NCBI GenBank assembly: GCA_029865225.1
Contig: JAOUHJ010000026.1
Location: forward strand, 1 to 41,281
Direction of reading: 5' to 3'
DNA length: 41,281 nucleotides
From: Nitrospira sp.
Lineage (GTDB): Bacteria; Nitrospirota; Nitrospiria; Nitrospirales; Nitrospiraceae
This document shows positions 3,579-36,322 of this stretch, one piece after another. Made by a program: the position numbers and the translations under genes. The notes under the pieces are model-generated. The model saw only the letters and a list, made by a program, of their open reading frames with translations, was not told the DNA's origin and ran no database searches. Each line of letters starts with the position of its first letter. Position 1 is the stretch's first letter.

Positions 3579-5063
3579 TCAGACCTCGGCCTTAACGGTC
3601 GGCTCGTTGATTAGTTGATAGGCGCGGCGAAGCTCACTGGCTTCTCGATCGACCATGTCCTGTAGGTCGGGCGCGATCTCGCATACGAATTCCACAAACC
3701 GCTCGACTTTGAGCAAAAAGAAGTCATACGATCCCGACGAACATCGTGGTTCCCGAAACCAGAACGGCACGAATCCCTCGATCGACAGTCCTCGTGCTCT
3801 GAGTTGACGGCAGGATTCGACGAACATATCCTCCAAGTCTCCTCCCCAGTGAAGAATCTCATGCGGAAGATATCCGGTTCGATAGCGGTCCAACTCTTCA
3901 GCATACGCTGAAGCTGCTTCCCATTCAGGCCCAACTGGTTCGGCCTGGCCTGTTAGCACACGGACATAGCGATCATAGGCCTCCTTCAGAACCTGCTTGG
4001 TCATCGCTGAAGTCTGCTCCTCGGGCAATGCTGAACCTTCAGGACCGAACGGGAGACCATGGCTCATCGGGATCCGAGGAAAGGCCGACGTGTAACGTCG
4101 TGAGAACCGAGTGAACTCCTCCACGATCAATTCAGCTGGTTTCATGTCCACTTCTAACGCGAGGCCTTTCAGGTTGGTGAGACGTGGATGGCTCAAAATC
4201 TGATCGAGCATCTCGAACAATACCGCCGGAATGGGGGCCTCGTGTGCATCGATCCATGCAGGCAGTACCGTCTCGCTCGAATGGCCTGACGAAATTGAGA
4301 CAGGGCTTCCGCTTGCATCATGAACATCAAGACCTGCGACATGGATTTCTACCACACGTTCCAGAGGGAATTCGTCGAGAAACGTACTCATGAATTGTGC
4401 ACGCGACTGAGTCCGCCGTGTCCATGAATAACGAAAGACCGTCCAAAGGTGACCGACATCCAACACCAGCCCGCAAGGCGACTGGTCACAGACGATCCTA
4501 AAAAAGCCTGGAAGGGACAGAGTCCCGGCGACAAAGTAGGTAAGCGGAGGCATTTCGAGCAGCAACAACGGCGTATTTCCATTCGCCAGTCGACACTGTT
4601 GATCGAGCAGACGTTGGATCTGCCTGATATTTTCGCTCACCAGGTCTGCGCTTGATCGGGTATAGAGGGGAGGCAGATAGGTCCCAAAGTAATGGCCGGC
4701 GAGAAACTTCGTCGCACATTCGTGATTCAACCAGGCGCTCTGCAATACAAGCAGATGTTCGACCGTTTCATGGAAGGCTTGCTGAAAAGCGCCCATTTCC
4801 GCCACCCCAGGTTGGGTGACCCACAACCCCTCACCGTGATACGCTATCAATTCGTTGCCGACGTCCTTCTTGACGGTTTCCAAGGCCATCGTGGTCGTAC
4901 GGAACAGTTCAAGATAGCTAGGCGGAACACCACGTTCCTGGAGACTTCGCCGTAAGCTCGCAAGAGGAGGAGAATGGACGTCTACGGAAAGACCCAGTCC
5001 ATGGGCAGGAATGGCCTCGAGTCGACGCATGAATTCATGATGGTACGACCCTCGATCCGTCAC
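3579..5063 (-). CDS. DUF692/MNIO-like TIM-barrel protein with extra C-terminal domain
   Basis: The N-terminal two thirds fit the DUF692 (multinuclear non-haem iron oxidase, MbnB-like) TIM barrel. The signs are an early GLGLSVDVHSP, IAYHGEGLWV, LLLLEMPPLTYF (metal-ligand Glu), GLVLDVGHLW (Asp and His) and VVEIHVAGLDVHD (Glu, His). Known members modify cysteines or asparagines of peptides using iron clusters. About 190 C-terminal residues (from YDRYVRVLTGQAEP) are not part of that barrel and have no family I recognise. I chose the GTG at 5063 because AGGAGGAG stands six bases before it; a TTG at 5087 would precede that site. It is followed 4 bp later by dus. No precursor peptide gene or MbnC-like partner is visible nearby, so its substrate is unknown. 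Confidence 0.72.
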   Translation of the reverse strand: MTDRGSYHHEFMRRLEAIPAHGLGLSVDVHSPPLASLRRSLQERGVPPSYLELFRTTTMALETVKKDVGNELIAYHGEGLWVTQPGVAEMGAFQQAFHETVEHLLVLQSAWLNHECATKFLAGHYFGTYLPPLYTRSSADLVSENIRQIQRLLDQQCRLANGNTPLLLLEMPPLTYFVAGTLSLPGFFRIVCDQSPCGLVLDVGHLWTVFRYSWTRRTQSRAQFMSTFLDEFPLERVVEIHVAGLDVHDASGSPVSISSGHSSETVLPAWIDAHEAPIPAVLFEMLDQILSHPRLTNLKGLALEVDMKPAELIVEEFTRFSRRYTSAFPRIPMSHGLPFGPEGSALPEEQTSAMTKQVLKEAYDRYVRVLTGQAEPVGPEWEAASAYAEELDRYRTGYLPHEILHWGGDLEDMFVESCRQLRARGLSIEGFVPFWFREPRCSSGSYDFFLLKVERFVEFVCEIAPDLQDMVDREASELRRAYQLINEPTVKAEV

Positions 5064-5165
5064 TATTCTCCTCCTATTGGCGGTCAAAATATGCTTCTAG
5101 TGTATGACTTCAAACCATTGAATGACAAGGCTTTCACCCCTTCAAGGCTGCACAAGACCTTCTGC

Positions 5166-12877: not shown

Positions 12878-14323
12878 CTACTTAATTCCCTGGCCGGCTG
12901 ACCTTGGAGCAAACATCTCAAAGATGCTTGGTTCACGCTCCGAGTAGTCCGGTGGGAAGAAGTTAAACCGTCGCCAAAGCTCGTACCAGAGAGGAACACG
13001 ATTCATGATCACCCAGCCCAAGACATTGGTCCCCTGTCTGACCTGGGTCTGATCAGGCCAAGGTTGAGGATCATCTGGATCGGGAACGACCCAGAATCGG
13101 AAATTCCCCTTTCCATCGTCGATCTGGTCAACCACTTTGATGACCCCAGAACGAGTCCCGGCCATGAGCCCTGGCCAGGCCGGTAATGGAATGGCCGGCA
13201 CCCCGAAGAAGAGAATCCTAACCTTTCGGCCAGCCTTCAAAAGAGGTGCATCCAGCCCATCAGCAAACATTTCGATAGCTGGATCACTCGCGAGCGGTGA
13301 AATAGTGACTAAATTATCACCCTGCTTGACCGTTTCGTTAATGCCGACACGCGCCATCCTGACGACAGTGCCATCCATCGGCGCATAGAGTTTCGCGGCT
13401 TCAATACGTTGCTGGACGCCCTGCTGTTTGTACTCGATATCGGCTAACTGCTCAGTCGCCTTAGCAGCTTCTGCAACCGCGGCGTCACGTGACGCGATGG
13501 CATCGATGAGTTTCTGATTCACATCGGCCGTAATCTGATCACGACCGAAGTTGAGCGCTGACCTGGCTTGCTCGGCAGCCAACAGACTTGCTTGGGCTGC
13601 CTGTAGGCCTGCCTTCGTGCCGATTTCCGTCTGAATCGTCAACTCAAGTTCTCGTTGTGAGACCAATCCATCCCTAACCAGCTGCCGATGACGGTCGACG
13701 TTAAGCTGCGCAGTATCGACATCGATCTTGAGCTGTTCGACCTTTTGTTGGGCTTCACGGACTCTATTGTCGGCCTCGACTACCCGCGCTTCCGCTGAAG
13801 GCACAGCGGCCTGAACGAGTTTTCTCATTTCCCCGATCCGCCTGTTCAACTGATCGGCTCTACCCAGTGCAGCCTCACGCGTTTTCCCCAAGGCCTCCTT
13901 TCGTTGTTCGAAAAGAGGAAGGATTTCAGGCGCCATGTAGGTTGGGTCATAGTCCTCGAGTTCGCCGATCAGGTCCCCTTTCTTAACCTGGACACCTTCA
14001 TAGATATGCCAGGCCTTGACCCGACCGGTAATCCGCGATTCGATCTTTTGCGGACGATCGTACGGAGTATAGGCCGAAACCTTCCCTGTCGCCTGAATGG
14101 TCTGCGTCCAGGGCACGAACTCAAGGATGATTAAGAACACGAGCAGGATCGTGAGGATCGCTCGCGAAGCCGTGAACATGCTGCCAGAAAGTTTGACGTT
14201 CTCCCAGCATGGCAGCTTTGACAATGCTGAGCCCTGCTCGATTGCGATTGCCTCTAACCCAACCCCTCTCGTTACGAGGGCACGTTCTTCACCTCTGTCG
14301 AGACCACCACCTAGGCTTGCCAT
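12878..14323 (-). CDS. HlyD-type periplasmic adaptor 1
   Basis: This 481-residue membrane-fusion protein would bridge the ABC half-transporter encoded just upstream and a TolC-like channel. After a 50-residue cytoplasmic part comes one membrane helix (ILTILLVFLIILEFVPWTQT). A split biotinyl-lipoyl motif follows (RITGRVKAWHIYEGVQVKKG and YAPMDGTVVRMARVG) around a long coiled-coil hairpin at about 150-310. A C-terminal domain ends VPLWYELWRRFNFFPPDY. A paralogue is at 23165-24598. GGAGG stands four bases before the ATG. It is the last gene of a minus-strand run with abc1 and three tolC-like genes; 54 bp separate it from abc1. Confidence 0.9.
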   Translation of the reverse strand: MASLGGGLDRGEERALVTRGVGLEAIAIEQGSALSKLPCWENVKLSGSMFTASRAILTILLVFLIILEFVPWTQTIQATGKVSAYTPYDRPQKIESRITGRVKAWHIYEGVQVKKGDLIGELEDYDPTYMAPEILPLFEQRKEALGKTREAALGRADQLNRRIGEMRKLVQAAVPSAEARVVEADNRVREAQQKVEQLKIDVDTAQLNVDRHRQLVRDGLVSQRELELTIQTEIGTKAGLQAAQASLLAAEQARSALNFGRDQITADVNQKLIDAIASRDAAVAEAAKATEQLADIEYKQQGVQQRIEAAKLYAPMDGTVVRMARVGINETVKQGDNLVTISPLASDPAIEMFADGLDAPLLKAGRKVRILFFGVPAIPLPAWPGLMAGTRSGVIKVVDQIDDGKGNFRFWVVPDPDDPQPWPDQTQVRQGTNVLGWVIMNRVPLWYELWRRFNFFPPDYSEREPSIFEMFAPRSAGQGIK

Positions 14324-14377: not shown

Positions 14378-16057
14378 TTATGCATGGGCATGGTGCAGCA
14401 TAATACGACGATCCGCGTGATCCGTCAGGTTTGGATCTGTGGACACAAAGATCACCGACCATGCTTCGTCCTTTGAGCACAAACGCCGCAGAATCCGCTC
14501 TCTCAACGATGGTTCAAGCGAATGAATCAAACCATCGAATATGAGCACTTGCGGACGCCCTAGGATAGCGCGGGCGAGCAAGATCTGCACAATGTGCGTC
14601 GGTGAAATGGATTCCCCGAGTGAGGAGATATCCGACTTGACTCCGCGTGGCAAACCTTCGACGTCTTCCTCCAGTTCGACAAAGCGGAGGGCCCAGTTAA
14701 GGTCATCATAGGAGACATACGAACGTCCCATGACGATGTTTTCTTCGACGGTCCCATCGACCAAGGTCAATTGGGAATCAATCATCACGCTTCGGCATTG
14801 GTTGAGGCCATTAGGATCCATATAGCGAAGATCCACCCCGTTGTACTGAACGACTCCGTTTGTGGGAGTTTCGAGCCCACCCAGGACACGAGCCAACGCT
14901 GTTTTGGCTGCCGTGGTCCTAGCATAAATGCCAAGCTTTTCACCTGGCGCCACATCTAGGTTGAAACCATCAAACACGGAGGCCCCTCCATGGATAAGGC
15001 TGACACCTTTGCAGGTGACACGAACACCCTGGGTCAAATGCTTCGGCATGCCCACAGGTGATTCGACTGAGACGTAATCTTGCTCCTGTTTAAAGACTTC
15101 ATCGAGGTGAGTCAGGGCCGTGAAGAAATAATACACGAATCCCATGTTCTTGATCAGCGTGTCAAAATTGATGACCAGAGCACCAACGACCGCTTGGACC
15201 GCGACAAGCTGGCCAAGGGTCAGCTGGCCAATGGCCATAAGGTAACCCGATATGCCGAGAGCTGCTGCCTGTGCAAGCGCTTGTCCACCCACGGAACCGA
15301 TGTACTGACGCACGAGGACCCGAAATCGTGCTTTTCGAGCGTCCACATAATGATTGACGAGATCGTTCGTCCGTTGAAGAACAAAAGGGCGGCTGTCGCT
15401 CGCTTTGAGTTGCAACGAATTCTGCGCGACCTCTTGCACCCAACGGAAGACATCGTACTTTGCGTGAGACATGTCGAGGGTCGTCTTCAACGCACCACGG
15501 GAGAGCACGAAGAACGTGATCGCAAACCCCGCCATGAGAAGCAAGTTGTACATGAGAAAATAGGGATGGTACACCATGAGCAACAGCATACCGACCGAGC
15601 CACCCACGAGCACATTGATCAAATCGAACAGCAACGTGGACAACGCCCGTTGCATGAAGACTGTTTCAATGAAATAGTTCGAAAGATACTGGGCTTGTTT
15701 GGTTTTAAATCGATTACGAGGAAGCTGCTCAACCATCGCAACCGTAATTCTGGCGAAGACTCTACGCTGGATCACGTCGATCGCGTAAAAGTGGAAGGTC
15801 TTGAACAGACCGACGAACAACAACACCGTCAACATAATTGCGGTCAATGTCCAGATCATGACCGGCTGAACCGCATACGAGAAGGTGCTGACCATCTCCT
15901 GTACGGTCAATGGGACGATCAAGGAAAAGAACGCGACGGCCAAGGCGTAGGAAATGATCAAATACATGATCCTTTTCTCAGCCTTCATGGACACTGATAG
16001 CTGTTTCATCAATGCTTGAAACAGACCCGGGTAACGATCGCCCTGAGGTTCTTTCAT
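14378..16057 (-). CDS. ABC half-transporter 1 with non-canonical ATPase motifs
   Basis: Six membrane helices (about 30-320) precede a nucleotide-binding domain (345-560), as in type-I secretion ABC proteins without a C39 peptidase. The ATPase motifs are abnormal (numbered from an in-frame GTG at 16063). The Walker A region reads GIYARTTAAKTAL, all three P-loop glycines replaced but Lys387 kept. The LSGGQ position is ISPTH (486-490). Walker B is VLIFDG, with Gly511 in place of the catalytic Glu. The H-loop is VSTDPN, with no His. ATP hydrolysis by the normal mechanism is unlikely. ATG 16057 is chosen because GGGGG lies six bases upstream. It lies 129 bp after tolC1 and 54 bp before hlyD1. Confidence 0.88.
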   Translation of the reverse strand: MKEPQGDRYPGLFQALMKQLSVSMKAEKRIMYLIISYALAVAFFSLIVPLTVQEMVSTFSYAVQPVMIWTLTAIMLTVLLFVGLFKTFHFYAIDVIQRRVFARITVAMVEQLPRNRFKTKQAQYLSNYFIETVFMQRALSTLLFDLINVLVGGSVGMLLLMVYHPYFLMYNLLLMAGFAITFFVLSRGALKTTLDMSHAKYDVFRWVQEVAQNSLQLKASDSRPFVLQRTNDLVNHYVDARKARFRVLVRQYIGSVGGQALAQAAALGISGYLMAIGQLTLGQLVAVQAVVGALVINFDTLIKNMGFVYYFFTALTHLDEVFKQEQDYVSVESPVGMPKHLTQGVRVTCKGVSLIHGGASVFDGFNLDVAPGEKLGIYARTTAAKTALARVLGGLETPTNGVVQYNGVDLRYMDPNGLNQCRSVMIDSQLTLVDGTVEENIVMGRSYVSYDDLNWALRFVELEEDVEGLPRGVKSDISSLGESISPTHIVQILLARAILGRPQVLIFDGLIHSLEPSLRERILRRLCSKDEAWSVIFVSTDPNLTDHADRRIMLHHAHA

Positions 16058-16186
16058 GAGCACCCCCAGTTATAAGTCAGGATGTGAATCAATTGGTTCC
16101 TTACTGATACGAATCACCGCCGCACTTAACCACACTACGAATTCTTAAGCCAACCCACCGAACGTACTATCTACCCCATCAAATCA

Positions 16187-17758
16187 TTAGTCACGTCCCA
16201 GAGCTGCACGACCCGATAAGCCGGCCGCATGTAACGGATCTCCGTATTTAGCGAGGATGTTGTTCGGGAGTGGCTTCGACAACGCTCCCTTGGCCCACAA
16301 CATTCCCCCTCGAGCCACGGCGTAGTCGGCTTGCGCCCGATAAAGTTCGTACGCGGCCTCGACGACAGCGCGCTCCCGTAAGTTGACGAACAGCACACTC
16401 GTCGCCCCCATGTTGAACCGAGCCCGTTCACCTTCTTCCAACGTTTTAGCCAAGCGCAGCGCTTCGGTGGCAGCTTTCACTCGGTCCCTGGCCCGCACAA
16501 TCGCCGAGAGCCAGTTGTCGACATCGATCTCGACCTGACGCTCAGTATAGGCCTGCTTATACGCCAACCGTGCCTGTTCAGCCTCAGCATGCAGGACCTT
16601 CCCGCGGGCACCTCGATTGAACAGCGGCATACTGAAACGAAGTTGCATGTTGTAGCCGAACCCTCCGACCCAATAGAGAGAGCCCACCGCCGGCCCACCT
16701 GAAAACGTCAGCTTTGGAAGGAGACTATTCTTCGCAAGCTTCAACTCGATATTGTTCAACCTAGCTTCGATGTAGAGATCACGTACTTCCGGACGATCCT
16801 CCGCGGCTTCTAGCTTAAAGGCCGCCACATCCTCTTCGCTCGGCAACGGCGTTTCCCCTTGAAATTCAGGGGCCCATTCAGGGCGAGGCGTCACCGGTTC
16901 GCCGTTTTCCCAAAGAAACAGGGCCAGCTTATATTGCTCATACTCCACCTTCCGTTGCGCGGCAATGGCAGCCTCTCGGCGGCGCTGCACTTCTTCTTGG
17001 GCCTCGACTACGTCGATCGGAGCGACCGCTCCGGCTTTGGATCTCCCTTCAACCATGCGATAGCGCTCTTCCGCGACGGCCAGCGTACGCTTCACCACAT
17101 CGGCTTGTTTGACGGCGACCTGCCAATCCCAATATTGAACGGCCCCGGCGAGATAGAGATCCTGCCGTTTCTGCGCCACCTTCACCTCGGCTTGCGGTCC
17201 GGCAAGCTCCGCCTGTTGAAACTCGGCATACTCCTCGTTGACCATGAATCCACGCAGGAGATTAAAGGCTCCGCCGACGATCAGCATTTGCTGTGGCCAG
17301 AACAGTTGGAGGTCTTGAGGGAAGGCTACCAAACTCCCGCGGGTTCCTGAATTGATAGTGTGGCGATCACCGAAACCATTACGAATACCCCCGAATACCT
17401 CAATGCCCCAGGGATGCGCCACTTTGAGCATGGTATCGCTATAGCCGCTCGTCAAGTCATTCGGTATGCCGGAAACGTTCGTCAGGTTATACGTGACATA
17501 CCGATCCATCTCGACCTCGTTCCGAATCCTCGGCTCCCACGTGCCCAACGCTTTCAGGACTTTCGCCCGGGCTTGTGACCGTTCCAGTCCGGTGGCCCGG
17601 AGCAGCGGATGGGTCAACTCAATCCTGGCCAGTACCTCTTCAATGGTCAAGGGAGCGGTCCTCACTGACTCGGCGTTAGTTGCGCCCGCAGCGGCGTGAG
17701 GTTCCGCCATTGCAGCCACCGGCATAATCATCAATGAGAACAGCAATAGAAGGATCAA
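16187..17758 (-). CDS. TolC-family outer-membrane channel, tandem copy 1
   Basis: A secreted, helix-rich outer-membrane efflux protein of about 523 residues: signal peptide (LILLLLFSLMIMPVAAMA), then the start of the mature fold TIEEVLARIELTHPLLRATG. The two OEP repeats contain QKRQDLYLAGAVQYWDW and GATSVLFVNLRER. It would form the trimeric outer-membrane duct for the HlyD/ABC pair. The TTG at 17758 is preferred: AAAGGAG lies 9 bases upstream, exactly as in its two tandem paralogues; a TTG at 17797 would overlap the previous gene's stop. It is closely related to the next two tolC genes; 129 bp follow before abc1. Confidence 0.87.
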   Translation of the reverse strand: MILLLLFSLMIMPVAAMAEPHAAAGATNAESVRTAPLTIEEVLARIELTHPLLRATGLERSQARAKVLKALGTWEPRIRNEVEMDRYVTYNLTNVSGIPNDLTSGYSDTMLKVAHPWGIEVFGGIRNGFGDRHTINSGTRGSLVAFPQDLQLFWPQQMLIVGGAFNLLRGFMVNEEYAEFQQAELAGPQAEVKVAQKRQDLYLAGAVQYWDWQVAVKQADVVKRTLAVAEERYRMVEGRSKAGAVAPIDVVEAQEEVQRRREAAIAAQRKVEYEQYKLALFLWENGEPVTPRPEWAPEFQGETPLPSEEDVAAFKLEAAEDRPEVRDLYIEARLNNIELKLAKNSLLPKLTFSGGPAVGSLYWVGGFGYNMQLRFSMPLFNRGARGKVLHAEAEQARLAYKQAYTERQVEIDVDNWLSAIVRARDRVKAATEALRLAKTLEEGERARFNMGATSVLFVNLRERAVVEAAYELYRAQADYAVARGGMLWAKGALSKPLPNNILAKYGDPLHAAGLSGRAALGRD

Positions 17759-17783
17759 GGAAGAATGCTCCTTTGTTGCTGAA

Positions 17784-19340
17784 TTAATCGCGTCCAACCA
17801 CGGGTTGACCTGAGAGACCAGCTGCCGTCAGCGGATCGCCATACTTCGCCAAGGACTCCGTCGGCCAGGGCTTCGACAACACGCCCCTCGCCCACAGCAT
17901 CCCTCCACGTGCCACCGCGTAGTCGGCCTGCGCCCGATACAGCTGGTACGCCGATTCCACCACGTTGCGCTCCCGGAGGTTCACAAAGAGCACCGTACTC
18001 GCGCCCAAATTGAAGCGGGTCCGTTCACCCTCTTCCAACGTCTTGGCCAAGCGCAGCGCTTCCGTGGCCGCCGTTACCCGGTCTCTGGCCCGCACGATCG
18101 CCGAAAGCCAGTTGTCCACATCAACGCTGACTTGTTGCTCGGCATACAACTGACTGAAGACCAATTGCTGCTGCTCCGCCTCCGCCGTCATGACCTTCCC
18201 CCGCCCTTCCCGCTGGAACAGCGGCATCGCAAACTGCGTGGCGATCCGATAGCCCACCCCCACCGCCCAGTCGCCAGGGGTATCCATCCGTCCCCCTTCT
18301 AAATTCAACTTCGGGAGGAGGTAGTTCTTGGCGAGCTTGAGGTCGATATTGTTCATCTTCGCTTCGATATAGTAGTTGCGCACTTCCGGCCGATCTTCCT
18401 TCGCCTCGACCTTATAGGCTGCGATTTCCTCTTTGGTCGGGAGCGGGGTCTCGCCCTGGAATTCCGGCGCCCATTCCGGCCGTGGGATCACCGGCTCCCC
18501 ATGCTCCCACAGAAAGAGCGACAGGTTGTACTGCTCATACTCCACCTTCCGTTGCGCCGCGATCGCCGCCTCTCGGCGATTCTGTACCTCTTGGTTCACC
18601 TCGACGACATCGAGCGGGGCCACCTTCCCGCCCTTCGCCAGCCCTTCCACCTGGACCAAGCGGTCTTCGGCCACAGCCAAGGCCCGTTTCACAATCTCAG
18701 CCTGCTTCACGGCGACCTGCCAATCCCAGTACTGCACAGCTCCGGCGAGATAGAGATCCTGTCGTTTCTGCGCCACCGTGATCTCCGCCATCGGTGCCGC
18801 GAGCTCGGCCTTCTGGTACTCCGCATACTCATCGTTGATCATGAAGCCGCGCAGCAGCTTGAACTTTCCCCCGAAGATCATCTGTTGCTGTTCATAGAAG
18901 AGGTTCACATCAGGGATGACGCCAGAAAAGGTATGGAAGAGGCGATCTCCGAAGCCGTTACGGATCCCGCCATGGACCTCAAACCCCCAGGGATGCCCGA
19001 CATTGAGCTTGCTGTCGTTAAAGCCCACCGTGTGCTCATGGATGACGGACAGAAAATTCCAATCCTGATACCGATCGACTTCGGTAAAGTTATTGAACTT
19101 CGGCTCCCAGGCCCCGAGGGCCTTCAAGATTTTCGCCCGGGCCTGCATCCGCTCGACCCCGGTCGCCCGGAGCAGCGGATGGGTCAACTCAATACGAGCC
19201 AGGACTTCATCGATGGTCAAGGGTGCGGTGCGTACCGACTGGGCCTGCACGACGCTGTGATCAATCACCGGCGCCGTACCAGACTCCGCCCTGGTCGTCA
19301 CGGGAAGCAAGATTATAATGATGAAAAATAGAGCTGCCAT
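17784..19340 (-). CDS. TolC-family outer-membrane channel, tandem copy 2
   Basis: This 518-residue paralogue has the signal MAALFFIIIILLPVTTRA, preceded by AAGGAG. It shares the TIDEVLARIELTHPLL opening and long near-identical blocks with its neighbours (EIVKRALAVAEDRL, RREAAIAAQRKVEYEQY, RPEWAPEFQGETPLP). It differs most at about residues 115-145, between GIRNGFGDR and FGGKFKLLRGFM. It lies 24 bp after copy 3 and just upstream of copy 1, and it belongs to the same predicted transcript. Why one exporter needs three channels is unknown; alternative channel use or hetero-trimers are possible. Confidence 0.88.
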   Translation of the reverse strand: MAALFFIIIILLPVTTRAESGTAPVIDHSVVQAQSVRTAPLTIDEVLARIELTHPLLRATGVERMQARAKILKALGAWEPKFNNFTEVDRYQDWNFLSVIHEHTVGFNDSKLNVGHPWGFEVHGGIRNGFGDRLFHTFSGVIPDVNLFYEQQQMIFGGKFKLLRGFMINDEYAEYQKAELAAPMAEITVAQKRQDLYLAGAVQYWDWQVAVKQAEIVKRALAVAEDRLVQVEGLAKGGKVAPLDVVEVNQEVQNRREAAIAAQRKVEYEQYNLSLFLWEHGEPVIPRPEWAPEFQGETPLPTKEEIAAYKVEAKEDRPEVRNYYIEAKMNNIDLKLAKNYLLPKLNLEGGRMDTPGDWAVGVGYRIATQFAMPLFQREGRGKVMTAEAEQQQLVFSQLYAEQQVSVDVDNWLSAIVRARDRVTAATEALRLAKTLEEGERTRFNLGASTVLFVNLRERNVVESAYQLYRAQADYAVARGGMLWARGVLSKPWPTESLAKYGDPLTAAGLSGQPVVGRD

Positions 19341-19364
19341 TAGAAGGATGCTCCTTGTGCCGGT

Positions 19365-20951
19365 TTAATCACGGCCCGGCTTTTGAAACCCGTACGTACC
19401 GGCAGCCGTCAGTGGATTGCCGTACTTCGCCAAGGATTCCGTCGGCCAGGGCTTCGCCAACACGCCCCTCGCCCACAACATGCCTCCACGCGCCACCGCG
19501 TAGTCGGCCTGCGCCCGATAGAGGTGATACGCCGACTCCACCACGTTACGCTCCCGGAGGTTCACAAAGAGGACGGTAGTTGCCCCCATGTTGAATCGCT
19601 TGCGTTCCCCTTCTTCTAGTGTCTTGGCCAAGCGAAGCGCTTCTGTCGCTGCTTTTACCCGGTCCCTAGACCGCACGATCGCCGAGAGCCAGTTGTCCAC
19701 GTCGAGGTTGATTTGTTGTTCGGCATATTGCTGTTTCAACGCTAATTGTTGCTGCATCACTTCCGCGCCCATGACCTTCCCACGTGCTCCCCGTTGAAAC
19801 AGCGGCACTTCAAAGTGAAGGTTGACATGGTAGCCGACGCCTACAATCCAGTCCGTGGCGGCATCCGCCGGGCCGCCCTCGATATCCAACTTCGGGAGGA
19901 GTTTGTTCTTGGCGAGTTTGATGTCGATATTGTTCATCTTGGCTTCGATATAGAGGTCCCGCAATTCTGGGCGAGCTTCATGCCCCTCCAACTTATAGGC
20001 CGCGATCTCTTTTTCGGTCGGGAGCGGCGTTTCGCCTTGGAATTCCGGTGCCCATTCCGGCCGCGGGGTCACCGGCTCGTTCTGCTCCCAGAGAAAGAGA
20101 GACAGTTTGTACTGCTCGTACTCCACCTTCCGTTGCGCGGCGATCGCCGCCTCTCGCCGCTTCTGCACCTCTTGGTTTGCCTCGACGACATCGAGCGGCG
20201 CCACCTTCCCGCCCTTCGCCAACCCTTCGACCTGGATCAAGCGGTCTTCGGCCACGGCCAAGGCGCGCTTCACAATTTCGGCCTGCTTGACGGCGACCTG
20301 CCAATCCCAGTACTGCACGGCCCCGGCGAGATAGAGATCCTGCCGTTTCTGCGCTACCTTAATCTCCGCCTGAGGACCTGCGAGCTCAGCCTGTTGATAC
20401 TCAGCGTACTCTTCGTTGATCATGAGGCCGCGCAGCAGTTTGACCGACCCGCCAAAGATGAATTGCTGCATCCTATCGAGCCCCTGTACGTCAGGGATCG
20501 CAGAAAAAAGTAAAGTACCGCGATCCCCGAAGCCTTGGCGGAGCCCGCCATGGACCTTCAAGCCCCAGGGATGCCCGATCTCGAGCTTGCTGTCGTTAAA
20601 TCCAGCCATCAGCCTTTGCGGCTGGAGCGGCTCGCATGGAGCGGTACAGCTAAGGCCAGCCACGGGGGCCGTCGTGAGATTCCACGTCTCATACCGTTCG
20701 GCTTCTAAAATGTTATGGAACGTCGGTTCCCAGGCCGCGAGCGCCTTCAGAATCTTCGCCCGGGCCTTCGTTCGCTCGGCTCCGGCCGCTTGAAGCAAGG
20801 GATGCGTCAACTCGATACGGGCGAGGACTTCATCGATGGTCAGGGGAGCGGTGCGAGTTGCCTGAGTCTGGACGGCACGAGAGTCCATCATCGGTTCCGC
20901 CAGTGCGGTCATTGGCAGGAGAATAACAATGGCCAATACCAGAGCGATCAT
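19365..20951 (-). CDS. TolC-family outer-membrane channel, tandem copy 3 (operon leader)
   Basis: First gene of the predicted tolC-tolC-tolC-abc-hlyD operon. It encodes about 528 residues with signal MIALVLAIVILLPMTALA. ATG 20951 is chosen because AAAGGAG lies eight bases before it. It has the same OEP architecture as copies 1 and 2, with a distinctive cysteine-containing insert LSCTAPCEPLQPQ at about residue 100. The cysteine pair could form a disulphide. It is transcribed divergently from the first LysR regulator. Confidence 0.88.
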   Translation of the reverse strand: MIALVLAIVILLPMTALAEPMMDSRAVQTQATRTAPLTIDEVLARIELTHPLLQAAGAERTKARAKILKALAAWEPTFHNILEAERYETWNLTTAPVAGLSCTAPCEPLQPQRLMAGFNDSKLEIGHPWGLKVHGGLRQGFGDRGTLLFSAIPDVQGLDRMQQFIFGGSVKLLRGLMINEEYAEYQQAELAGPQAEIKVAQKRQDLYLAGAVQYWDWQVAVKQAEIVKRALAVAEDRLIQVEGLAKGGKVAPLDVVEANQEVQKRREAAIAAQRKVEYEQYKLSLFLWEQNEPVTPRPEWAPEFQGETPLPTEKEIAAYKLEGHEARPELRDLYIEAKMNNIDIKLAKNKLLPKLDIEGGPADAATDWIVGVGYHVNLHFEVPLFQRGARGKVMGAEVMQQQLALKQQYAEQQINLDVDNWLSAIVRSRDRVKAATEALRLAKTLEEGERKRFNMGATTVLFVNLRERNVVESAYHLYRAQADYAVARGGMLWARGVLAKPWPTESLAKYGNPLTAAGTYGFQKPGRD

Positions 20952-20990
20952 GCAGGATGCTCCTTTCACATTGGGTGGCGGACGGCGCCC

Positions 20991-21093: not shown

Positions 21094-21993
21094 ATGGATT
21101 GGTTGAACTATCACCACCTGCTGTACTTCTGGTCCGTCGCCAAGCACGGAACCATGACCAAAGCGTGCGAGGAGCTGCGCCTCGCGCAACCGACGATCAG
21201 CGGACAGATCCGTCTCTTGGAAAACACGTTGGGGGAAAAGTTATTTATCCGCACCGGACGCCGCCTGGCGTTGACAGAGATGGGCCACCTGGTCTTCAAG
21301 TATGCGGAGGATATCTTCGCGACCGGCCAGGAACTGCTGAACACGGTCAAGAGCCAAGGGAACGGGCACCCCACCAGGCTGGTGGTGGGCATCGCGGAGG
21401 CGATCCCAAAACCACTGGCCACTCAACTGCTCAAGTCGGCCCTGAAACTGTATCGGCCGACTCGTTTGGTCTGCCAGGAAGACAAACTGCGCCAACTGTT
21501 GACCGATCTGACAGCCCATCGGTCCGACCTGGTGATCGCAGACACCCCAGCCCCGCCTGGGACCAAGGAGCATATGTACAACCACCCCTTGGGTGAATCC
21601 GGGGTAACTCTCTTCGCGACCGCAAAGTTGGCCACACAATACCGCCGAGGCTTTCCGGAATCACTACGGAACGCCCCCATGCTGCTTCCCACCGCAAACG
21701 CCATGCTTCGACGATTGCTGGACCAATGGATGGTTAACCATGGCCTCCACCCGTTGATTGTCGGTGAGTTCGACGATAGCTCGACCTTGAAGGCGTTCGG
21801 CCAAGACGGATATGGCATCTTCCCCGGGGCCTCGGTGATCGAGCATGAGATCTGCCGCCAATACCGGGTACAGACGGTCGGACAGCTGGAGGGGCTCAAA
21901 CAACATTTCTACGCCATCACGGTGGAGCGGCGCGTGAAACACCAGGCCGTCCTGGCACTCGTCCGAACCGCCCGACGAGAGCTGCTCGGCTAA
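21094..21993 (+). CDS. LysR-family regulator 1 (NhaR-like)
   Basis: A 299-residue LysR-type regulator. The N-terminal winged helix-turn-helix includes HHLLYFWSVAKHGTMTKACE and LAQPTISGQIRLLENTLGEKL. The start MDWLNYHHLLYFW is typical of the NhaR subgroup. The effector domain follows from about residue 92. It is divergent from the tolC-abc-hlyD operon and probably controls it through the dyad at 21043-21057. It is a tandem paralogue of the next gene; most differences lie in the effector domain. The inducer is unknown. NhaR itself responds to sodium, but that cannot be transferred to this protein. Confidence 0.9.
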   Translation: MDWLNYHHLLYFWSVAKHGTMTKACEELRLAQPTISGQIRLLENTLGEKLFIRTGRRLALTEMGHLVFKYAEDIFATGQELLNTVKSQGNGHPTRLVVGIAEAIPKPLATQLLKSALKLYRPTRLVCQEDKLRQLLTDLTAHRSDLVIADTPAPPGTKEHMYNHPLGESGVTLFATAKLATQYRRGFPESLRNAPMLLPTANAMLRRLLDQWMVNHGLHPLIVGEFDDSSTLKAFGQDGYGIFPGASVIEHEICRQYRVQTVGQLEGLKQHFYAITVERRVKHQAVLALVRTARRELLG

Positions 21994-22111: not shown

Positions 22112-23011
22112 ATGGAATGGCTGAATTATCACCATCTCCTCTATTTTTGGTCGGTTGCGAAGCACGGCACTGTGGCCAAGGCTTGCGAGGAGCTCCATCT
22201 CGCTCAACCTACGATCAGTGCACAGATTCGAGCCTTGGAGGAGAGTTTGGGCGAAAAGCTGTTCATCCGAACCGGGCGTCAGCTCATCCTGACGGAAATG
22301 GGCCGGATTGCATTCAGGTATGCGGAAGATATCTTCTCCATCGGGCGAGACCTGATGAATACGATGAAGGGACGGGGTAGCGGCCGTCCTCTCCGCCTGA
22401 CCGTTGGCATTGTCGACGTGGTCCCCAAGCTGCTGGCTGCCCGGCTTTTGGAATCGACCTCGAGACAATCCCCATCAACACGCCTGATCTGTTGGGAGGA
22501 TAAGTTAGACCAGCTGCTAGCCGACCTGGCCATCCATGGGCTGGATTTGGTCATCGCCGATACACCGGCCCCGCCAACCATCAAGGTGCAGACCCATAAC
22601 CATCTCATGGGAGAATCCGGCGTTACCTTCTTCGGGGCGCCCAAAATGGCGGTGCGATACCGTCGCAACTTTCCTCGATCCTTGAACGGTGCGCCTATTT
22701 TATTGCCCACCTCGAACGCGATCCTTCGCAGGTTATTAGACGATTGGCTGGCACGTCACCACCTGTCGCCGACTATTATCGGAGAGTTCGAAGATAGTGC
22801 GACATTAAAGGCCTTCGGCCAGGAAGGCCATGGGCTGTTCCCCGGATCGACGGTGATGGAGAAAGAAATCTGCCAGCAGTATCGTGTGCAGGTGGTTGGG
22901 CGCCTCGATTCCGTCAAGCAAAGGTTTTATGCGATCACTGTTGAGCGGCGGCTCAAACATCCGGCAGTGGTGGCCCTCCTAGACGCGGCCCGCCGTGATA
23001 TTCTGGCATGA
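22112..23011 (+). CDS. LysR-family regulator 2 (NhaR-like)
   Basis: A 299-residue tandem paralogue of the upstream regulator, the same length and colinear throughout. The helix-turn-helix (SVAKHGTVAKACEELHLAQP) is nearly identical, so the two may recognise similar operators, while the effector domain diverges (for example LGESGVTLFATAKLATQYRR versus MGESGVTFFGAPKMAVRYRR). It is followed after 153 bp by hlyD2 on the same strand, which suggests it serves the second exporter set. Confidence 0.9.
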   Translation: MEWLNYHHLLYFWSVAKHGTVAKACEELHLAQPTISAQIRALEESLGEKLFIRTGRQLILTEMGRIAFRYAEDIFSIGRDLMNTMKGRGSGRPLRLTVGIVDVVPKLLAARLLESTSRQSPSTRLICWEDKLDQLLADLAIHGLDLVIADTPAPPTIKVQTHNHLMGESGVTFFGAPKMAVRYRRNFPRSLNGAPILLPTSNAILRRLLDDWLARHHLSPTIIGEFEDSATLKAFGQEGHGLFPGSTVMEKEICQQYRVQVVGRLDSVKQRFYAITVERRLKHPAVVALLDAARRDILA

Positions 23012-23164: not shown

Positions 23165-24598
23165 GTGGGAAGCCTAGATCCTGACCTGGCACATCAACCC
23201 CGCTTTCTCAGCCAGGACAGGGCCACCGACGAGATCACCATCGACGAGCTTGCCGCCTCAACCACACTCCAGTCCTGGGAGAATGCACAGCTTCCGAAGG
23301 GCTGGAGATTTTCCTCTCGTGTACCGGTTAGCCTGGTTCTCCTTTTCTTGCTTATCATCATTTTCGTTCCCTGGACTCAGACGGTGACCGTGACTGGCCA
23401 GATGTCGGCCTACACGCCCCACGAACGACCACAGGACGTCGAAGCTCAGATTACCGGTCGCATCAAGAAATGGCACGCATTAGAAGGTGACCAGGTTCGG
23501 GAAGGTGATCTCATTCTCGAATTAGAAGACAATGACCCCAACTTCATGTCACCCGACTTACTCGCCTTTCTCGATCAACGGAAGAAGGCGCTCGAGAACA
23601 CCAAGAGCGCGGCATTGGCCAGAGTCGACCAGCTCGACAAGCGCATCTTAGAAATGCGGAATCTTGTCAAAGCCGCCGTCCCGTCGGCGGAGGCCCGCGT
23701 CGTCGAGGCCGGCAGCAAGGTGCGCCAAGCGCACCAGCAGGTCGAGGCAGCCAAGATCGCCGCCATCACGGCAGCGCTTAACCTCGAACGGCACAAACAG
23801 CTCCTCAAGAGAGGCTTGGTGTCTCAGCGAGAGCTGGAGTTGGCGGTCCAAACAGATACCGCAAGCCAGGCCGATCTCGAGGGGGCGCAGGCGAATCTCC
23901 GAGCAGCTGAAGAGGCCATGAAGTCACTGGGGTTCGGACGCGACCAAGTGAGCGCAGAGATGTTGCAGCGCCTGCTTGATGCGGAAGCGACTCGTGATGC
24001 ATCGGTTGCCGAAGCTGCCAAAGTGGCCGACCAGCTCGCCGATGTCTCGCTGCGACGGTCAAACGCCGAGCAACGCCGGTTGGCTGGCAGAATCTTGGCC
24101 CCGATCGACGGCACGGTCGTCAAGATGGCCAAAGTCGGGGCCGGTGAAACCGTGCGACAGGGCGACACGTTGGTGCGCCTTTCTCCCACCAGCACGGACA
24201 AGGCGATTGAGATGACGGCAGACGGACTGGACGCTCCTCTGCTGAATGTCGGTCGGAAGGTCAAAATCCTCTTCTATGGCATCCCAGCCATTCCTTTGCC
24301 GGCCTGGCCTGAACTCATGGCCGGTACGTACAACGGGGTGATCAAGGTGATCGACCAAGTCGATGACGGAAAGGGCAACTATCGGTTCTGGGTCGTTCCC
24401 GACCTCGACGATCGTTCCTGGCCGGAGCAGTCCCACGTCCGCCAGGGCACGAAAGTGATGGGATGGGTCATTCTCAACCGAGTGCCACTCTGGTACGAAC
24501 TGTGGCGTCGATTCAACCTGTTCCCACCCGACTACGAGGAGCGATCACACACGATCATCGATACGCTTCTGCCGAAAGCTGGGCGGGGATCAAAATAA
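23165..24598 (+). CDS. HlyD-type periplasmic adaptor 2
   Basis: Paralogue of HlyD1 (477 residues). One membrane helix (VSLVLLFLLIIIFVPWTQT) is followed by lipoyl halves AQITGRIKKWHALEGDQVREG and LAPIDGTVVKMAKVG around a coiled coil, then the shared tail VPLWYELWRRFNLFPPDY. The start is a GTG with AGGGA about eight bases upstream. Unlike the first set, this adaptor is on the opposite strand from its presumed ABC partner and converges on it with 14 bp between stops, so the second set is split into two transcription units. Confidence 0.9.
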   Translation: MGSLDPDLAHQPRFLSQDRATDEITIDELAASTTLQSWENAQLPKGWRFSSRVPVSLVLLFLLIIIFVPWTQTVTVTGQMSAYTPHERPQDVEAQITGRIKKWHALEGDQVREGDLILELEDNDPNFMSPDLLAFLDQRKKALENTKSAALARVDQLDKRILEMRNLVKAAVPSAEARVVEAGSKVRQAHQQVEAAKIAAITAALNLERHKQLLKRGLVSQRELELAVQTDTASQADLEGAQANLRAAEEAMKSLGFGRDQVSAEMLQRLLDAEATRDASVAEAAKVADQLADVSLRRSNAEQRRLAGRILAPIDGTVVKMAKVGAGETVRQGDTLVRLSPTSTDKAIEMTADGLDAPLLNVGRKVKILFYGIPAIPLPAWPELMAGTYNGVIKVIDQVDDGKGNYRFWVVPDLDDRSWPEQSHVRQGTKVMGWVILNRVPLWYELWRRFNLFPPDYEERSHTIIDTLLPKAGRGSK

Positions 24599-24612: not shown

Positions 24613-26313
24613 TCAGGAAGGCAACAACGGTACGGACGTGCCCGAATCATCAAGAGCAATGCGCCGATCGACATAGGGTGTTAAATTCGGATCGGTCGAG
24701 ACGAACAAGACGGTCCATGATTCCTCTTTCGAACAGATTCGCCGAAGGATGGCGTCGCGCAAGGCCGGCTGCATGTCGTGAATCATCCCGTCGAAGATAA
24801 GGAGTTGAGGCCGTCCCACAATGGCACGGGCGAGTAAGATGCGCAGGATATGGGTTGGTGCCGGAATCTCCCCGAACGCGCGGATATCGGAGTTAATCCC
24901 CAGCGGAAGAGTTGCAATCTCTTCCTGGAGCTGGGTCAACCAGAGCGCCCATCGGACATCGTCATAGGAGACGGCGGAACGTCGCCACACGATATTGTCC
25001 GCGATCGTCCCATCCATCAATGACAACTGTGAATCGATCATGAAGCCGCGGTGCTGATTAATACGGTTCAGATCAAGATGTCGGAGATCGACATCGTTAT
25101 AGGAAACGCACCCGCTGCTCGGTGATTCGAGACCAGCCAACACCCTGGCCAGCGCCATTCTGGCCGCAATGGTCTTTGCATAGATGGCCACCCTCTCTCC
25201 AGAGGCAACCTCCAGGTCAAGATTGGCGAAGACGGGGGTTCCGTCGCGAACCACGCCCAACCCGACACCGGTTAACCGGATGCCATGATTTTTGGGATCA
25301 CGAAGAGTCACAGTGGAAGTCGGCGGAGGACGACGTTCCTCTTGTGGGAGCGCGAAGAAGGCTTCGAGTTCCTCCAACGACGTGAAGAAGAAATATACGT
25401 GCCCGATACTCTTGACGACCGCATCAAAGTTGACGAGAAGGCTTCCCACCACGACCTCAACCGCTACCAGTTGCCCGAGAGTCAATTGGTCGATGGACAG
25501 CAGCCAGCCGGCCAGCGCCAGGGTGCCGCTGTGTGCGAGCGCTTGTCCTCCTACAGACGCGATAAATTGACGCAGGAGCACGGCAAAGCGTGCCCGGCGA
25601 TACTCGATATACTTTGCCGTCAATTGGTCGGTTTTCTGAATGAGCAACTCCCGGCTATCCGTCGCCTTGATGTGCAGCAGATTGCGTGAAATTTCCTGCA
25701 TCCAGTGCAGTACGTCGTATTTGGCGTGAGACATGGCGATGGTCGTCCGCAGCCCTCCACGAGACAGGACGAAGACAATGAGCGTGAATCCGAGGAGCAG
25801 CACCAAATCAAACAGAATGAAGTAGGGATGATAGAAGACCAAAATGGTCATCCCGACGAAGCCGCCGACGATCACATGGACTAGATCGACGAGGAGGACC
25901 GACAAGGCACGCTGCATGAATGACGTTTCCATGAAGAAATTCGAGACCTGGGGCTTGAATCCTTGGAGTCGGATATGAGGCAGCTTCTGAGCCATGGCAA
26001 AAGCCGTCCTCACAAAGAGACGACGCTGCAGCACCTCGACCGCATAATGTTGCAACGTCTTGAACAGCCCCACAAATGCCAGCACGACGACCATGATAAT
26101 AGCCAATGTCACAATCATGACCGGTTGGATCGCGAAGGAGAACGTGTTGACCAATTCCTGGACAGTCAACGGGACGATCAGAGAGAAGAGTCCGATCACG
26201 AGCGAGTACAAACCTACAAGTACCAGAATTCTACGCTCGGTTTGGAAAAAGCGCCCAAGATGCCGTGAGACTTGAAAGAGGTTGGGCTGAGATGTGCCGG
26301 GTGATTGTCCCAT
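24613..26313 (-). CDS. ABC half-transporter 2 with non-canonical ATPase motifs
   Basis: 566 residues, colinear with ABC1: membrane domain (about 28-320, including SLIVPLTVQELVNTF) and nucleotide-binding domain (345-555). The ATPase motifs are even further from canonical. The P-loop reads AIYAKTIAARMAL, so the Walker lysine is Arg385 and the next Ser/Thr is Met386. The signature position is PAPTH (484-488), Walker B is LLIFDG with Gly509 in place of Glu, and the H-loop is VSTDPNLT. These match ABC1's odd motifs at xxPTH, FDGxIH and VSTDPNLT. The two may work as a heterodimer, but neither offers a complete ATP site. Downstream partner of tolC4, 127 bp away. Confidence 0.88.
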   Translation of the reverse strand: MGQSPGTSQPNLFQVSRHLGRFFQTERRILVLVGLYSLVIGLFSLIVPLTVQELVNTFSFAIQPVMIVTLAIIMVVVLAFVGLFKTLQHYAVEVLQRRLFVRTAFAMAQKLPHIRLQGFKPQVSNFFMETSFMQRALSVLLVDLVHVIVGGFVGMTILVFYHPYFILFDLVLLLGFTLIVFVLSRGGLRTTIAMSHAKYDVLHWMQEISRNLLHIKATDSRELLIQKTDQLTAKYIEYRRARFAVLLRQFIASVGGQALAHSGTLALAGWLLSIDQLTLGQLVAVEVVVGSLLVNFDAVVKSIGHVYFFFTSLEELEAFFALPQEERRPPPTSTVTLRDPKNHGIRLTGVGLGVVRDGTPVFANLDLEVASGERVAIYAKTIAARMALARVLAGLESPSSGCVSYNDVDLRHLDLNRINQHRGFMIDSQLSLMDGTIADNIVWRRSAVSYDDVRWALWLTQLQEEIATLPLGINSDIRAFGEIPAPTHILRILLARAIVGRPQLLIFDGMIHDMQPALRDAILRRICSKEESWTVLFVSTDPNLTPYVDRRIALDDSGTSVPLLPS

Positions 26314-26440: not shown

Positions 26441-27910
26441 TCATCGGTCACTCACTCGCAGGGAATCGCTCGGGGTCTTGGCCCAGGCTCCGACAGCCCA
26501 CTGGTACAGTGCCAAAGACTTGTGGTACTCGGCTTTCGCCCGAATAACCTGAATTTCTGAGTCCACGGTGTTGCGTTCGCGAAGGTTGACGAACAGAACG
26601 CTACTGGACCCGACGCTGTAGCGGTAACGCTCCCCCTCTTCGACGAGCTTGGCCAGACGGAAAGCCTGTGACGCTTCTTCCATCCGTTCGCGAGCCCGCT
26701 CGATGGCAGACAGGGCATTATCGACGTCGACAACGACTTGGTTTTCCCGGTACTGTTGGGCCATGACGAGCCGTTCCGCCTGGCCTTGCGCTTGAAGGAC
26801 TTCGCCTCGGCTTCGGCGTTGCAGAAGAGGAACCCTTAGCTCGACGCCGAATCGATATCCCAATCCGAGAACGAATTTCTCCGGAGAACGTGCCGGTGCA
26901 GCCTCCAAGTTTAGGCTCGGGAGCAGGTTGTTCTTGGCCAGAGCGAGGTCGATGTTATTGATCTTTGCCTCTACTTCGAGTTCTTTGACCTCGGGTCGTT
27001 CTGAGAGTGCTCTTGCCTTTTGACTCAAGACGTCGTCCACGGTCGGCATCCGCCTCTCCACCGGGAAGTCCGGGACACGCTCGAGCGGAGGAGCCGACGG
27101 GGAGCCATTTACCCACAGGAACATGGAGAGTTTGAACGCTTCTTGCTCGAGCCCTCGCCGTGCAGCGATCGCGACTTCGCGGCGTCGGTGTACCTCCTGG
27201 CCGGCTTCCGTCACGTCGATGACGGCGACTGACCCCGCATTCGCGAGCTCTTGCACCAGAGTATACCGGTCTTCCGCCACAGCGACTGCTCGCTTTTGGA
27301 CATCGAGCAACTTGGCAGCCGCAACCCAATCCCAGTATTGATGGGTAGCTGCTAAGAAGAGATCCTGCCTCGTTTTGGCGATTTTTATTTCTGCGCGAGG
27401 AGAGGCCAATTCGGATCGCTGTTGCTCAGCGCGTTCTGGATTGATCATCAGGCCCCTGAGCAACGGCAAGAAGCCGCCCAGGATGACCTGCTGATTACCG
27501 TTACCGAACGACAAGTCAGGGATTCTCGCCTCACCGATTGCTTGGTGAAATCCGGCGCTGCCTCGAAAACCCAATGGGTGAAGCGCTTCAACCAACGTGT
27601 CGTTAAACCCTACGGTTTGAGTTCCCTTGCTCGGGTCCGCGCTTGAAATAAAGCGTTCAAGCTCTGTGTCGTTCACGAGAGTGGGCTCAAAGGCACCCAG
27701 TGCCTGCAGCATCTTCCCCTTGGCGATCGTTTTTTCAGCTCCGGCGCCCCTCAGGAGCGGATGGGTCCGATCAATCCATGAATGAAGTTCCTCGAGACCG
27801 AACTGAATAGGCGGGAGCGATGTGGCCGCCGACAATTCTTTGGCCTGATCAGTGTAGCCGACCACCGGCAGCATGAGCAGACAGCTAACAACAAACACCA
27901 GGACTTTCAT
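26441..27910 (-). CDS. TolC-family outer-membrane channel 4
   Basis: A more divergent OEP protein of 489 residues, upstream of abc2. It has signal MKVLVFVVSCLLMLPVVG, then ELHSWIDRTHPLLRGAGAEK, corresponding to the ARIELTHPLLRATG block of copies 1-3, and near the C-terminus SVGSSSVLFVNLRERNTVDSE. ATG 27910 is chosen because AAAGGAG stands seven bases before it; in-frame codons upstream (27967, 28003) lack this and would bury the signal peptide. With abc2 and hlyD2 it completes the second exporter set. Confidence 0.88.
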   Translation of the reverse strand: MKVLVFVVSCLLMLPVVGYTDQAKELSAATSLPPIQFGLEELHSWIDRTHPLLRGAGAEKTIAKGKMLQALGAFEPTLVNDTELERFISSADPSKGTQTVGFNDTLVEALHPLGFRGSAGFHQAIGEARIPDLSFGNGNQQVILGGFLPLLRGLMINPERAEQQRSELASPRAEIKIAKTRQDLFLAATHQYWDWVAAAKLLDVQKRAVAVAEDRYTLVQELANAGSVAVIDVTEAGQEVHRRREVAIAARRGLEQEAFKLSMFLWVNGSPSAPPLERVPDFPVERRMPTVDDVLSQKARALSERPEVKELEVEAKINNIDLALAKNNLLPSLNLEAAPARSPEKFVLGLGYRFGVELRVPLLQRRSRGEVLQAQGQAERLVMAQQYRENQVVVDVDNALSAIERARERMEEASQAFRLAKLVEEGERYRYSVGSSSVLFVNLRERNTVDSEIQVIRAKAEYHKSLALYQWAVGAWAKTPSDSLRVSDR

Positions 27911-28074
27911 GGAACGACTCCTTTCTATGGATGTACGTCCGGTTTGATTGGAGTTTTGGGAAGCCATGTCCCGTAACAGTCTGAACGGGCGGGTTGGGAT
28001 CAAAGAGCATAGATGCCGGCGACGAAGGTGATGACTAGATAGTCGTTTGCAATCCGACCCTTTTTCTGGTGTGC

Positions 28075-29601: not shown

Positions 29602-30306
29602 TTAGATCAAACTGACCTTTCCTGTCGCGAGGTCATACACGGCGGATTCAACCCGTAATTTTCCGGCCTTCGTTGTCTCCCGAATCACCGTAGAGGATGC
29701 GCGCAACAATTCAGCCTGAATCTTCGCATTGGCTTGGATGGCCTTATCAAGATTGCCGCCGGACTTTTCTATCGCCGGATAAATGCGTTGATACAACACG
29801 CTGATCTGCCCTGGGACGGTATCCGTCGTCATCGCAGCCTTCACGGCCCCACAATTACTATGACCGATCACAAGCAGGGTCTTGATCCCAAGGACCGCGA
29901 CACCGAATTCCAGGCTGGCCACAATCTCCGGTGTCACCACGTTGCCGGCCACTCGTGTGACAAAGAGGTGGCCGATCGTTTGGTCAAAGACCAGTTCCAC
30001 CGGTATGCGAGAATCGGCACAGGTCAGCACCGCCGCAAACGGCTCTTGTTTATTGACCGTACGCTCTTTCATGATGTTAAGATCGTGAGTAATGGATGTC
30101 AGCCGATCGGCAGCAAACCGTTGGTTGCCCGCGAGCAATTCATGCAGGGCTTCATCGGGGCTGAGGCCGGTTTGGGCATGAAGCGTTCTGGGGGAAGCAA
30201 GCTCGATTCCTGCTTGCGTGGCCGCACCAAGAGCCGCACCTGAAAGAACCGTTTGAAGGAATTGTCTCCTACCCATACCTGAGTGACTGCTGGCACGATG
30301 TATCAT
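29602..30306 (-). CDS. Tat-exported beta-carbonic anhydrase
   Basis: A 234-residue beta-class carbonic anhydrase with zinc ligands in LTCADSRIP (Cys96, with Asp98 and Arg100) and IGHSNCGAVKAAM (His149, Cys152). The N-terminus has a twin-arginine signal (GMGRRQFLQTVLSGAALGAA), ending near LHAQ, so the enzyme is predicted to be exported folded to the periplasm. There it would interconvert CO2 and bicarbonate for uptake, relevant to an autotroph. AGGAGGT six bases before the ATG sets the start. Confidence 0.92.
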   Translation of the reverse strand: MIHRASSHSGMGRRQFLQTVLSGAALGAATQAGIELASPRTLHAQTGLSPDEALHELLAGNQRFAADRLTSITHDLNIMKERTVNKQEPFAAVLTCADSRIPVELVFDQTIGHLFVTRVAGNVVTPEIVASLEFGVAVLGIKTLLVIGHSNCGAVKAAMTTDTVPGQISVLYQRIYPAIEKSGGNLDKAIQANAKIQAELLRASSTVIRETTKAGKLRVESAVYDLATGKVSLI

Positions 30307-33687: not shown

Positions 33688-33743
33688 TCTCCCCTTACGC
33701 GAGACGGGCAGCCAAAGCCGACACAGCCAATCCCTCAGCCCCT

Positions 33744-34316: not shown

Positions 34317-34463
34317 CTCCCCTTTCGTCTGATAACCGACCTTTCAGGTTGCGTGGAGGTTGTTTCGTGATGTGTTCGCGAGCGGCTAGACTAACAAATC
34401 GAACCAGTTCAGCTACAGCATCGCGTGTGTTGTAGCAAGATTGGACCGGCTTCGCAATATCTT

Positions 34464-35918: not shown

Positions 35919-35953
35919 TGGACGACTCGCTGGAGTCCGTGATGAAGCCGATG

Positions 35954-36226: not shown

Positions 36227-36322
36227 AGGATATCCTACCCTTTCTGGTGAACAGGTCTAACGCAACCGAATGCGCGATGTCAACAACACTCGCGGAGGAC
36301 AGGCAACCGACACCTTCTCTGC

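Follow-up and report, generated by a model that had tools for sequence, protein, structure and literature searches.

The described systems closest to the locus reported here are the type I secretion systems (T1SS) of the HlyB–HlyD–TolC type, with ABC proteins such as HlyB, LssB/LapB and PrtD. Each ATP site of an ABC protein consists of the Walker A and Walker B motifs of one subunit and the signature motif of the other. The ABC fold can also be used for a non-pumping role, as in the CFTR channel and the SUR regulators, which retain one site that binds and hydrolyses ATP; in contrast to the proteins described here, they are eukaryotic and lack a tripartite operon. Exporters built as heterodimers in which one of the sites is degenerate form a known class (PMC7756269). 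T1SS-like parts also occur in loci that combine SecA_DEAD with an HlyD domain, with Nitrospirae among their hosts; these loci contain no ABC homologue, and a SecA-like ATPase has been proposed as their motor (Kamneva et al. 2015, PMC4452313). The present loci are likewise T1SS-like without a conventional ABC ATPase, but they do have an ABC protein, and no SecA-like motor gene was found in their annotated flanks. No description of such a family was found in the open-licence literature.

The window (the whole 41,281-nucleotide stretch of Nitrospira sp. DNA analysed) encodes two pseudo-ATPase, T1SS-like ABC half-transporters. Copy 1 occupies positions 14378–16063 of the minus strand and is 561 aa long, or 559 aa if translation starts from the ATG at 16057; the coordinates in the first-pass annotation were right, but the gene is encoded on the minus strand, stops interrupting the plus strand here. 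The gene of an HlyD-type periplasmic adaptor (12878–14323, minus strand) lies 54 bp downstream. Upstream of copy 1, at 16187–20969, are three tandem paralogues on the minus strand, encoding TolC-like OEP 1 (16187–17797; PF02321, 120.7 bits), OEP 2 (17784–19340, overlapping OEP 1 by 14 bp) and OEP 3 (19365–20969), with pairwise identities of 65–73%. TolC is normally a homotrimer; the three OEPs could possibly form a heterotrimeric outer-membrane channel. Two LysR regulator genes, 65% identical, follow on the plus strand (21094–21993 and 22112–23011), the first divergent from the copy-1 operon.

Copy 2 (24613–26313, minus strand, 566 aa) is located about 8.5 kb from copy 1 and is 54% identical to it, with its own partner genes alongside: an HlyD-type adaptor (23165–24598, plus strand), about 58–60% identical to that of copy 1, and TolC-like OEP 4 (26441–28003, minus strand). 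A β-carbonic anhydrase gene is found near the copy-2 operon (29602–30306). A gene cluster at 32749–38067 encodes agmatinase, a pyruvoyl-dependent arginine decarboxylase, an aldehyde dehydrogenase and a deoxyhypusine-synthase-like protein; this cluster is conserved next to the operon in many Nitrospira. At the other end of the window, positions 3579–5087 encode a MbnB/TglH/ChrH-like RiPP-modifying enzyme (PF05114, 50.8 bits).

The ATPase motifs of copy 1, all read from the minus strand, are degenerate throughout. Walker A, canonically GxxGxGKS/T, is ARTTAAKT (residues 379–386, positions 14900–14923), with all three glycines replaced and the Lys and Thr retained. The Q-loop region reads MIDSQLTL (residues 425–432, 14762–14785), the Gln being gone and DSQ standing instead, and the A-loop Tyr is His. 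The LSGGQ signature has become ISPTH (residues 484–488, 14594–14608). Walker B and the catalytic site, canonically D-E-A-T-S, are represented by FDGLIH (residues 507–512, 14522–14539), where the Asp is retained and the catalytic Glu is Gly. The H-loop is replaced by VSTDPNLT (residues 538–545, 14423–14446), with Thr in place of His. The first-pass annotation had reported the replacement of the P-loop glycines, the signature, the catalytic Glu and the H-loop His, all of which hold for copy 1; the Q-loop and A-loop losses are additional. It had also pointed to a diverged second copy with the same replacement motifs, and copy 2 indeed carries AKTIAARM (the Lys and the Ser/Thr also being lost), APTH, FDGMIH and VSTDPNLT.

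An alignment of 145 unique Nitrospirales relatives, 140 of them with a readable NBD, was compared with ten canonical ABC exporters of that order. All 140 NBDs have Gly in place of the catalytic Glu. The Q-loop Gln and the first signature Gly are each present in 0/140, the second signature Gly in 4/140, and the three P-loop glycines in 0, 0 and 19 of 140, respectively. The H-loop His is retained in none (0/138), Asn (81) and Thr (53) being the usual residues there. Since the same losses are found in 140 homologues, chance is excluded as their source. Walker A Lys385 and the Walker B Asp are each kept in 120/140 NBDs, so nucleotide binding may stay possible; Thr/Ser386 is also retained in most members. 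On a 14-residue scale of canonical motif positions, full-length family members score 1–5 and canonical ABC proteins 13–14, and no intermediate was found. The former active site has near-invariant residues of its own across Nitrospirales, namely Gly509 (140/140), His512 (139/140), Asp541 (138/139) and Pro542 (136/139).

The fold of the domain is preserved and the HlyD and TolC-like OEP partner genes are intact, in line with the preserved fold and partner genes of the first-pass annotation. The AlphaFold model of copy 1 has pLDDT values of mostly 83–96 over NBD residues 341–550; the TMD is partly of low confidence (below 50 at residues 152–162 and 290–299). HlyB, from a structure of the HlyB/D complex, is the top Foldseek match (E 7e-19), although TAP, IrtAB and TmrAB match equally well, and the comparison of folds does not single out T1SS. 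Copy 1 belongs to the ABC superfamily by its type IV exporter fold (six TM helices and an NBD) and by its PF00005 score of 36.3 bits against a cut-off of 25, whereas copy 2, with 21.5 bits, is under that cut-off. The superfamily's set of functional ATPase motifs is absent, with 1–5 of the 14 canonical residues in the 140 NBDs. The description of the system as type I secretion stands as a resemblance in fold, in a TM1 motif (PL..Q) and in an operon with HlyD and TolC-type genes. It does not stand as a class assignment, since the scores of copy 1 are well short of those required by all curated T1SS ABC models (TIGR03375, 110 against 693 bits; TIGR01846, 84 against 726; TIGR01842, 89 against 510). 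Unlike HlyB, LssB and PrtD, the pseudo-ABC protein has neither the canonical ATPase motifs nor a C39-like N-terminal domain. The NHLM bacteriocin transporters ABC1/ABC2 provide the top NCBIfam match of copy 1, also far from the required score (TIGR03796, 124 against 853 bits; TIGR03797, 104 against 709); the pseudo-ABC protein differs from them in having no peptidase domain and in the loss of the ATPase motifs. With the heterodimeric exporters TM287/288, TmrAB, BmrCD and TAP it has in common the fold and degenerate NBD residues. In these exporters each dimer retains one complete ATP site, whereas the pseudo-ABC protein supplies neither Walker A nor the signature.

The gene is present in 52/54 sampled congeners and in 48/56 other genomes of the same family. 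Elsewhere in the order it occurs in 11/28 genomes of a second family (f3), and it was found in 0/258 other genomes of the phylum; its reading frame is open in nearly all members. HlyD and OEP genes adjoin it in 81/89 well-flanked Nitrospirales members, and eight pseudo-ABC genes (L057, L060, L142, L157, L162, L166, L169 and L170) are orphans with no such neighbours. A second family member, also degenerate, adjoins the gene in 21/89 well-flanked members (L111, L107, L129, L133, L141 and others); such pairs might form a heterodimer of two dead ATPases. A four-helix-bundle membrane protein (4HB_MCP_1) is encoded after the ABC gene in 56/145 members (e.g. L044, 8088–8915) and is absent from the window. 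No recurring gene for a large secreted protein or other cargo was found in the flanks of the family loci, nor was linked RTX-type cargo seen. In a single case (L128, 11977–19236), a 2420-aa kelch/Ig/RHS-repeat protein, a possible cargo, is encoded directly downstream of a pseudo-ABC operon. DabA/DabB inorganic-carbon pump genes adjoin the operon in f3 Nitrospirales and on the Sphingobium plasmid pHAL16, where the order is DabB–DabA–ABC–HlyD–TolC–LysR; loci with these neighbours include L054 (13978–17001), L061 (8449–14733), L062, L063 and L200 (2–5656). A functional link between DabA/DabB and the pseudo-ABC operon is possible.

Outside Nitrospirota, where plasmid records were the range searched, twelve more members were found in Bacteroidota (Persicobacter, Aureibacter, Riemerella) and Sphingomonadales (Novosphingobium, Sphingobium, Sphingomonas, Croceicoccus), all 12 with a degenerate NBD. 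One, SARO_RS19820, is carried by a cultured strain, Novosphingobium aromaticivorans DSM 12444. The ABC gene is followed by HlyD and TolC genes, according to annotation or, at the unannotated loci examined, to similarity search; the exception is Sphingobium sp. TKS, with an IS3 transposase directly 3′ of the ABC gene. Genetic linkage with an HlyD adaptor and a TolC-type OEP, a T1SS trait, is thus seen both at Nitrospirales loci and on Bacteroidota and Sphingomonadales plasmids. The replacement motifs themselves are less widely shared. The first-pass annotation had singled out xxPTH, FDGxIH and VSTDPNLT as recurring motifs, and these are conserved under purifying selection. However, xxPTH and VSTDPNLT are characteristic of the clades to which the window's proteins belong, and other residues are found in Bacteroidota and Sphingomonadales, so that the family-wide trait is the loss of the ATPase residues and not one particular new motif.

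The TMD has a signature that spans the three phyla. His164, Gln251, Trp206, Lys200 and Ser197 are present in 17/17 sequences and Glu288 in 16/17, and the canonical exporters of the same alignment lack them; their position 164 is Ser or Asn. Within Nitrospirales, His164 (144/144) and Gln251 are invariant and the other signature residues vary; Glu288 is replaced by Gln in 40/145 members, copy 1 included. His164, in a YHPxF motif, is predicted to lie in the periplasmic TM3–TM4 loop, and Glu/Gln288 near the start of TM6, according to hydropathy. The predicted periplasmic loops, one of which holds His164, are the most conserved parts of the TMD (3.5–3.8 bits, against 2.5–3.5 for the TM helices). 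Another acidic residue, Glu54, was considered as a general proton site and rejected, being invariant in Nitrospirales and absent in the other phyla. Within the family, each comparison gave a higher identity for the TMD than for the NBD, whereas canonical ABC proteins show the reverse (34% for the TMD, 56% for the NBD). This inverted conservation is what a lost ATPase constraint combined with a retained TMD function predicts.

The suggestion that the replaced motifs are under selection is borne out by Nei–Gojobori counts, made for the copy-1 clade (at least 70% identical, 45 sequences) and for the NBD-free genes described below. In the copy-1 clade, the median ω is 0.029 at the replaced motifs, 0.040 in the NBD and 0.085 in the TMD. 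Gly509 and Pro542 are each encoded by four synonymous codons with the amino acid unchanged. Gly509, His512, Asp541 and Pro542 are common to two families of the order, and the loss would therefore be older than their split. Close homologues with canonical motifs, which the first-pass annotation had named as a sign of isolated decay, were not found among family members (99 relatives, 396 genomes of the phylum and the best 80 loci from a scan of 84,980 species). All of these best 80 loci are Nitrospirota by tree position, including the oddly labelled records L130 and L140; L140, labelled Acidimicrobiia, is probably a mis-binned contig, its family member grouping with Nitrospirota in the tree. As judged from the alignments, the catalytic elements have disappeared as a set, in a loss that is ancient and has become fixed, and purifying selection on the domain is strong.

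One lineage dispenses with the NBD altogether. In the second family (f3), three species that belong to a single genus have a TMD-only version of 339–348 aa, in the order HlyD–OEP–ABC with LysR alongside. No NBD remnant was found downstream of these genes, which nest among degenerate-NBD members in a TMD tree. The TM4–TM5 cytoplasmic loop, the would-be dock for the NBD, has diverged and the remaining TMD is kept; the predicted structure, with a pLDDT of only 67, resembles exporter TMDs. The ω values are 0.27–0.31 in the NBD-free genes against 0.09–0.20 in their HlyD and OEP partners, and one HlyD of the lineage is a short ORF. Given this weaker constraint, the lineage could possibly be starting to lose the system.

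The reading we favour, with a probability of about 0.65, is that the protein is an ATPase-dead relative of T1SS ABC transporters that would form the inner-membrane part of a tripartite complex with the HlyD-type adaptor and TolC-type channels. Sequence comparison shows a conserved operon, a lineage that lacks the NBD and, throughout the family, stronger conservation of the TMD than of the NBD. The protein probably does not hydrolyse ATP. The TMD dimer would dock HlyD and TolC and form a working conduit, and the pair of pseudo-NBDs would serve as a cytoplasmic scaffold, a gate or a substrate-docking platform without an ATP cycle. A drive other than ATP is plausible for the exporter, and the NBD-free lineage speaks for it. 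More speculatively, transport might draw its energy from the proton-motive force or from a gradient of the substrate itself, with His164 and Glu/Gln288 as candidate coupling residues; Glu288 is weakened as a general proton site by the frequent Gln noted above. The broader proposal of a multi-phylum ABC-fold family that has abandoned ATP hydrolysis and serves as the inner-membrane component of an HlyD–TolC conduit, energised by the proton-motive force or by a gradient, without an NBD in one lineage and possibly linked to inorganic-carbon (DabAB) physiology, is tentative and somewhat doubtful.

Alternatively, the pseudo-ABC protein could be a scaffold, sensor or regulator, with a pseudo-NBD that recognises a ligand or a partner protein and either gates the HlyD–TolC channel or sends signals to it. 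Such a role, for which the non-transporting SUR subunits of K-ATP channels are a precedent, would account for the lineage-specific near-invariant residues filling the former active site, and the sensor-like 4HB_MCP_1 gene that often follows the ABC gene and the eight orphan members also point that way. The complete ABC–HlyD–OEP setting of most loci, recurring in three phyla, fits an envelope conduit, and we regard this non-transporting role as unlikely. It is improbable that ATP is still used, whether through an unusual catalytic site that the new motifs would form or through binding of a nucleotide that is not hydrolysed. The intact NBD fold and the frequent retention of Lys385, Thr/Ser386 and the Walker B Asp would allow it, but the catalytic Glu, the Q-loop Gln, the H-loop His, the signature Gly and the P-loop glycines have been lost jointly, the Lys itself is gone in copy 2 and others, the other phyla carry different residues and three species have no NBD.

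A silent half of a heterodimer, with the ATPase supplied by a canonical ABC half-transporter encoded elsewhere, would belong to a known class (PMC7756269) and might be suggested by the members that stand beside a second family member. As the pseudo-ABC protein lacks both Walker A and the signature, no partner could complete a canonical ATP site with it. No partner completing one canonical site was found among family members, the tandem neighbours, themselves degenerate, included. Furthermore, the reduced genomes G361 and G243 (1.7–1.8 Mb) keep the gene and have only two other half-exporters, of 595–620 aa, neither as long as the CLD/C39-bearing HlyB/LssB. We consider this arrangement improbable. 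The lost catalytic residues could in principle reflect a pseudogene or relaxed decay, for which the probability is close to nil. Decay is rejected for the copy-1 clade by an ω of 0.03–0.04 in the NBD and by synonymous-only codon changes at Gly509 and Pro542, and the open frames and the retention of the gene in nearly all sampled Nitrospira, reduced genomes included, speak against it as well; decay might apply to the NBD-free lineage.

Hydrolysis of ATP is the defining property of ABC exporters. A conserved family that has given up the catalytic residues, retains a tripartite operon in three phyla and lacks the motor domain in one lineage offers a natural way to test what the TMD does by itself and whether an energy source other than ATP can drive an ABC fold. 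The label 'ABC transporter ATP-binding protein', borne by several of the plasmid records, may mislead for such genes. Almost every sampled genome of Nitrospira, a genus important in nitrification and wastewater treatment, carries the family.
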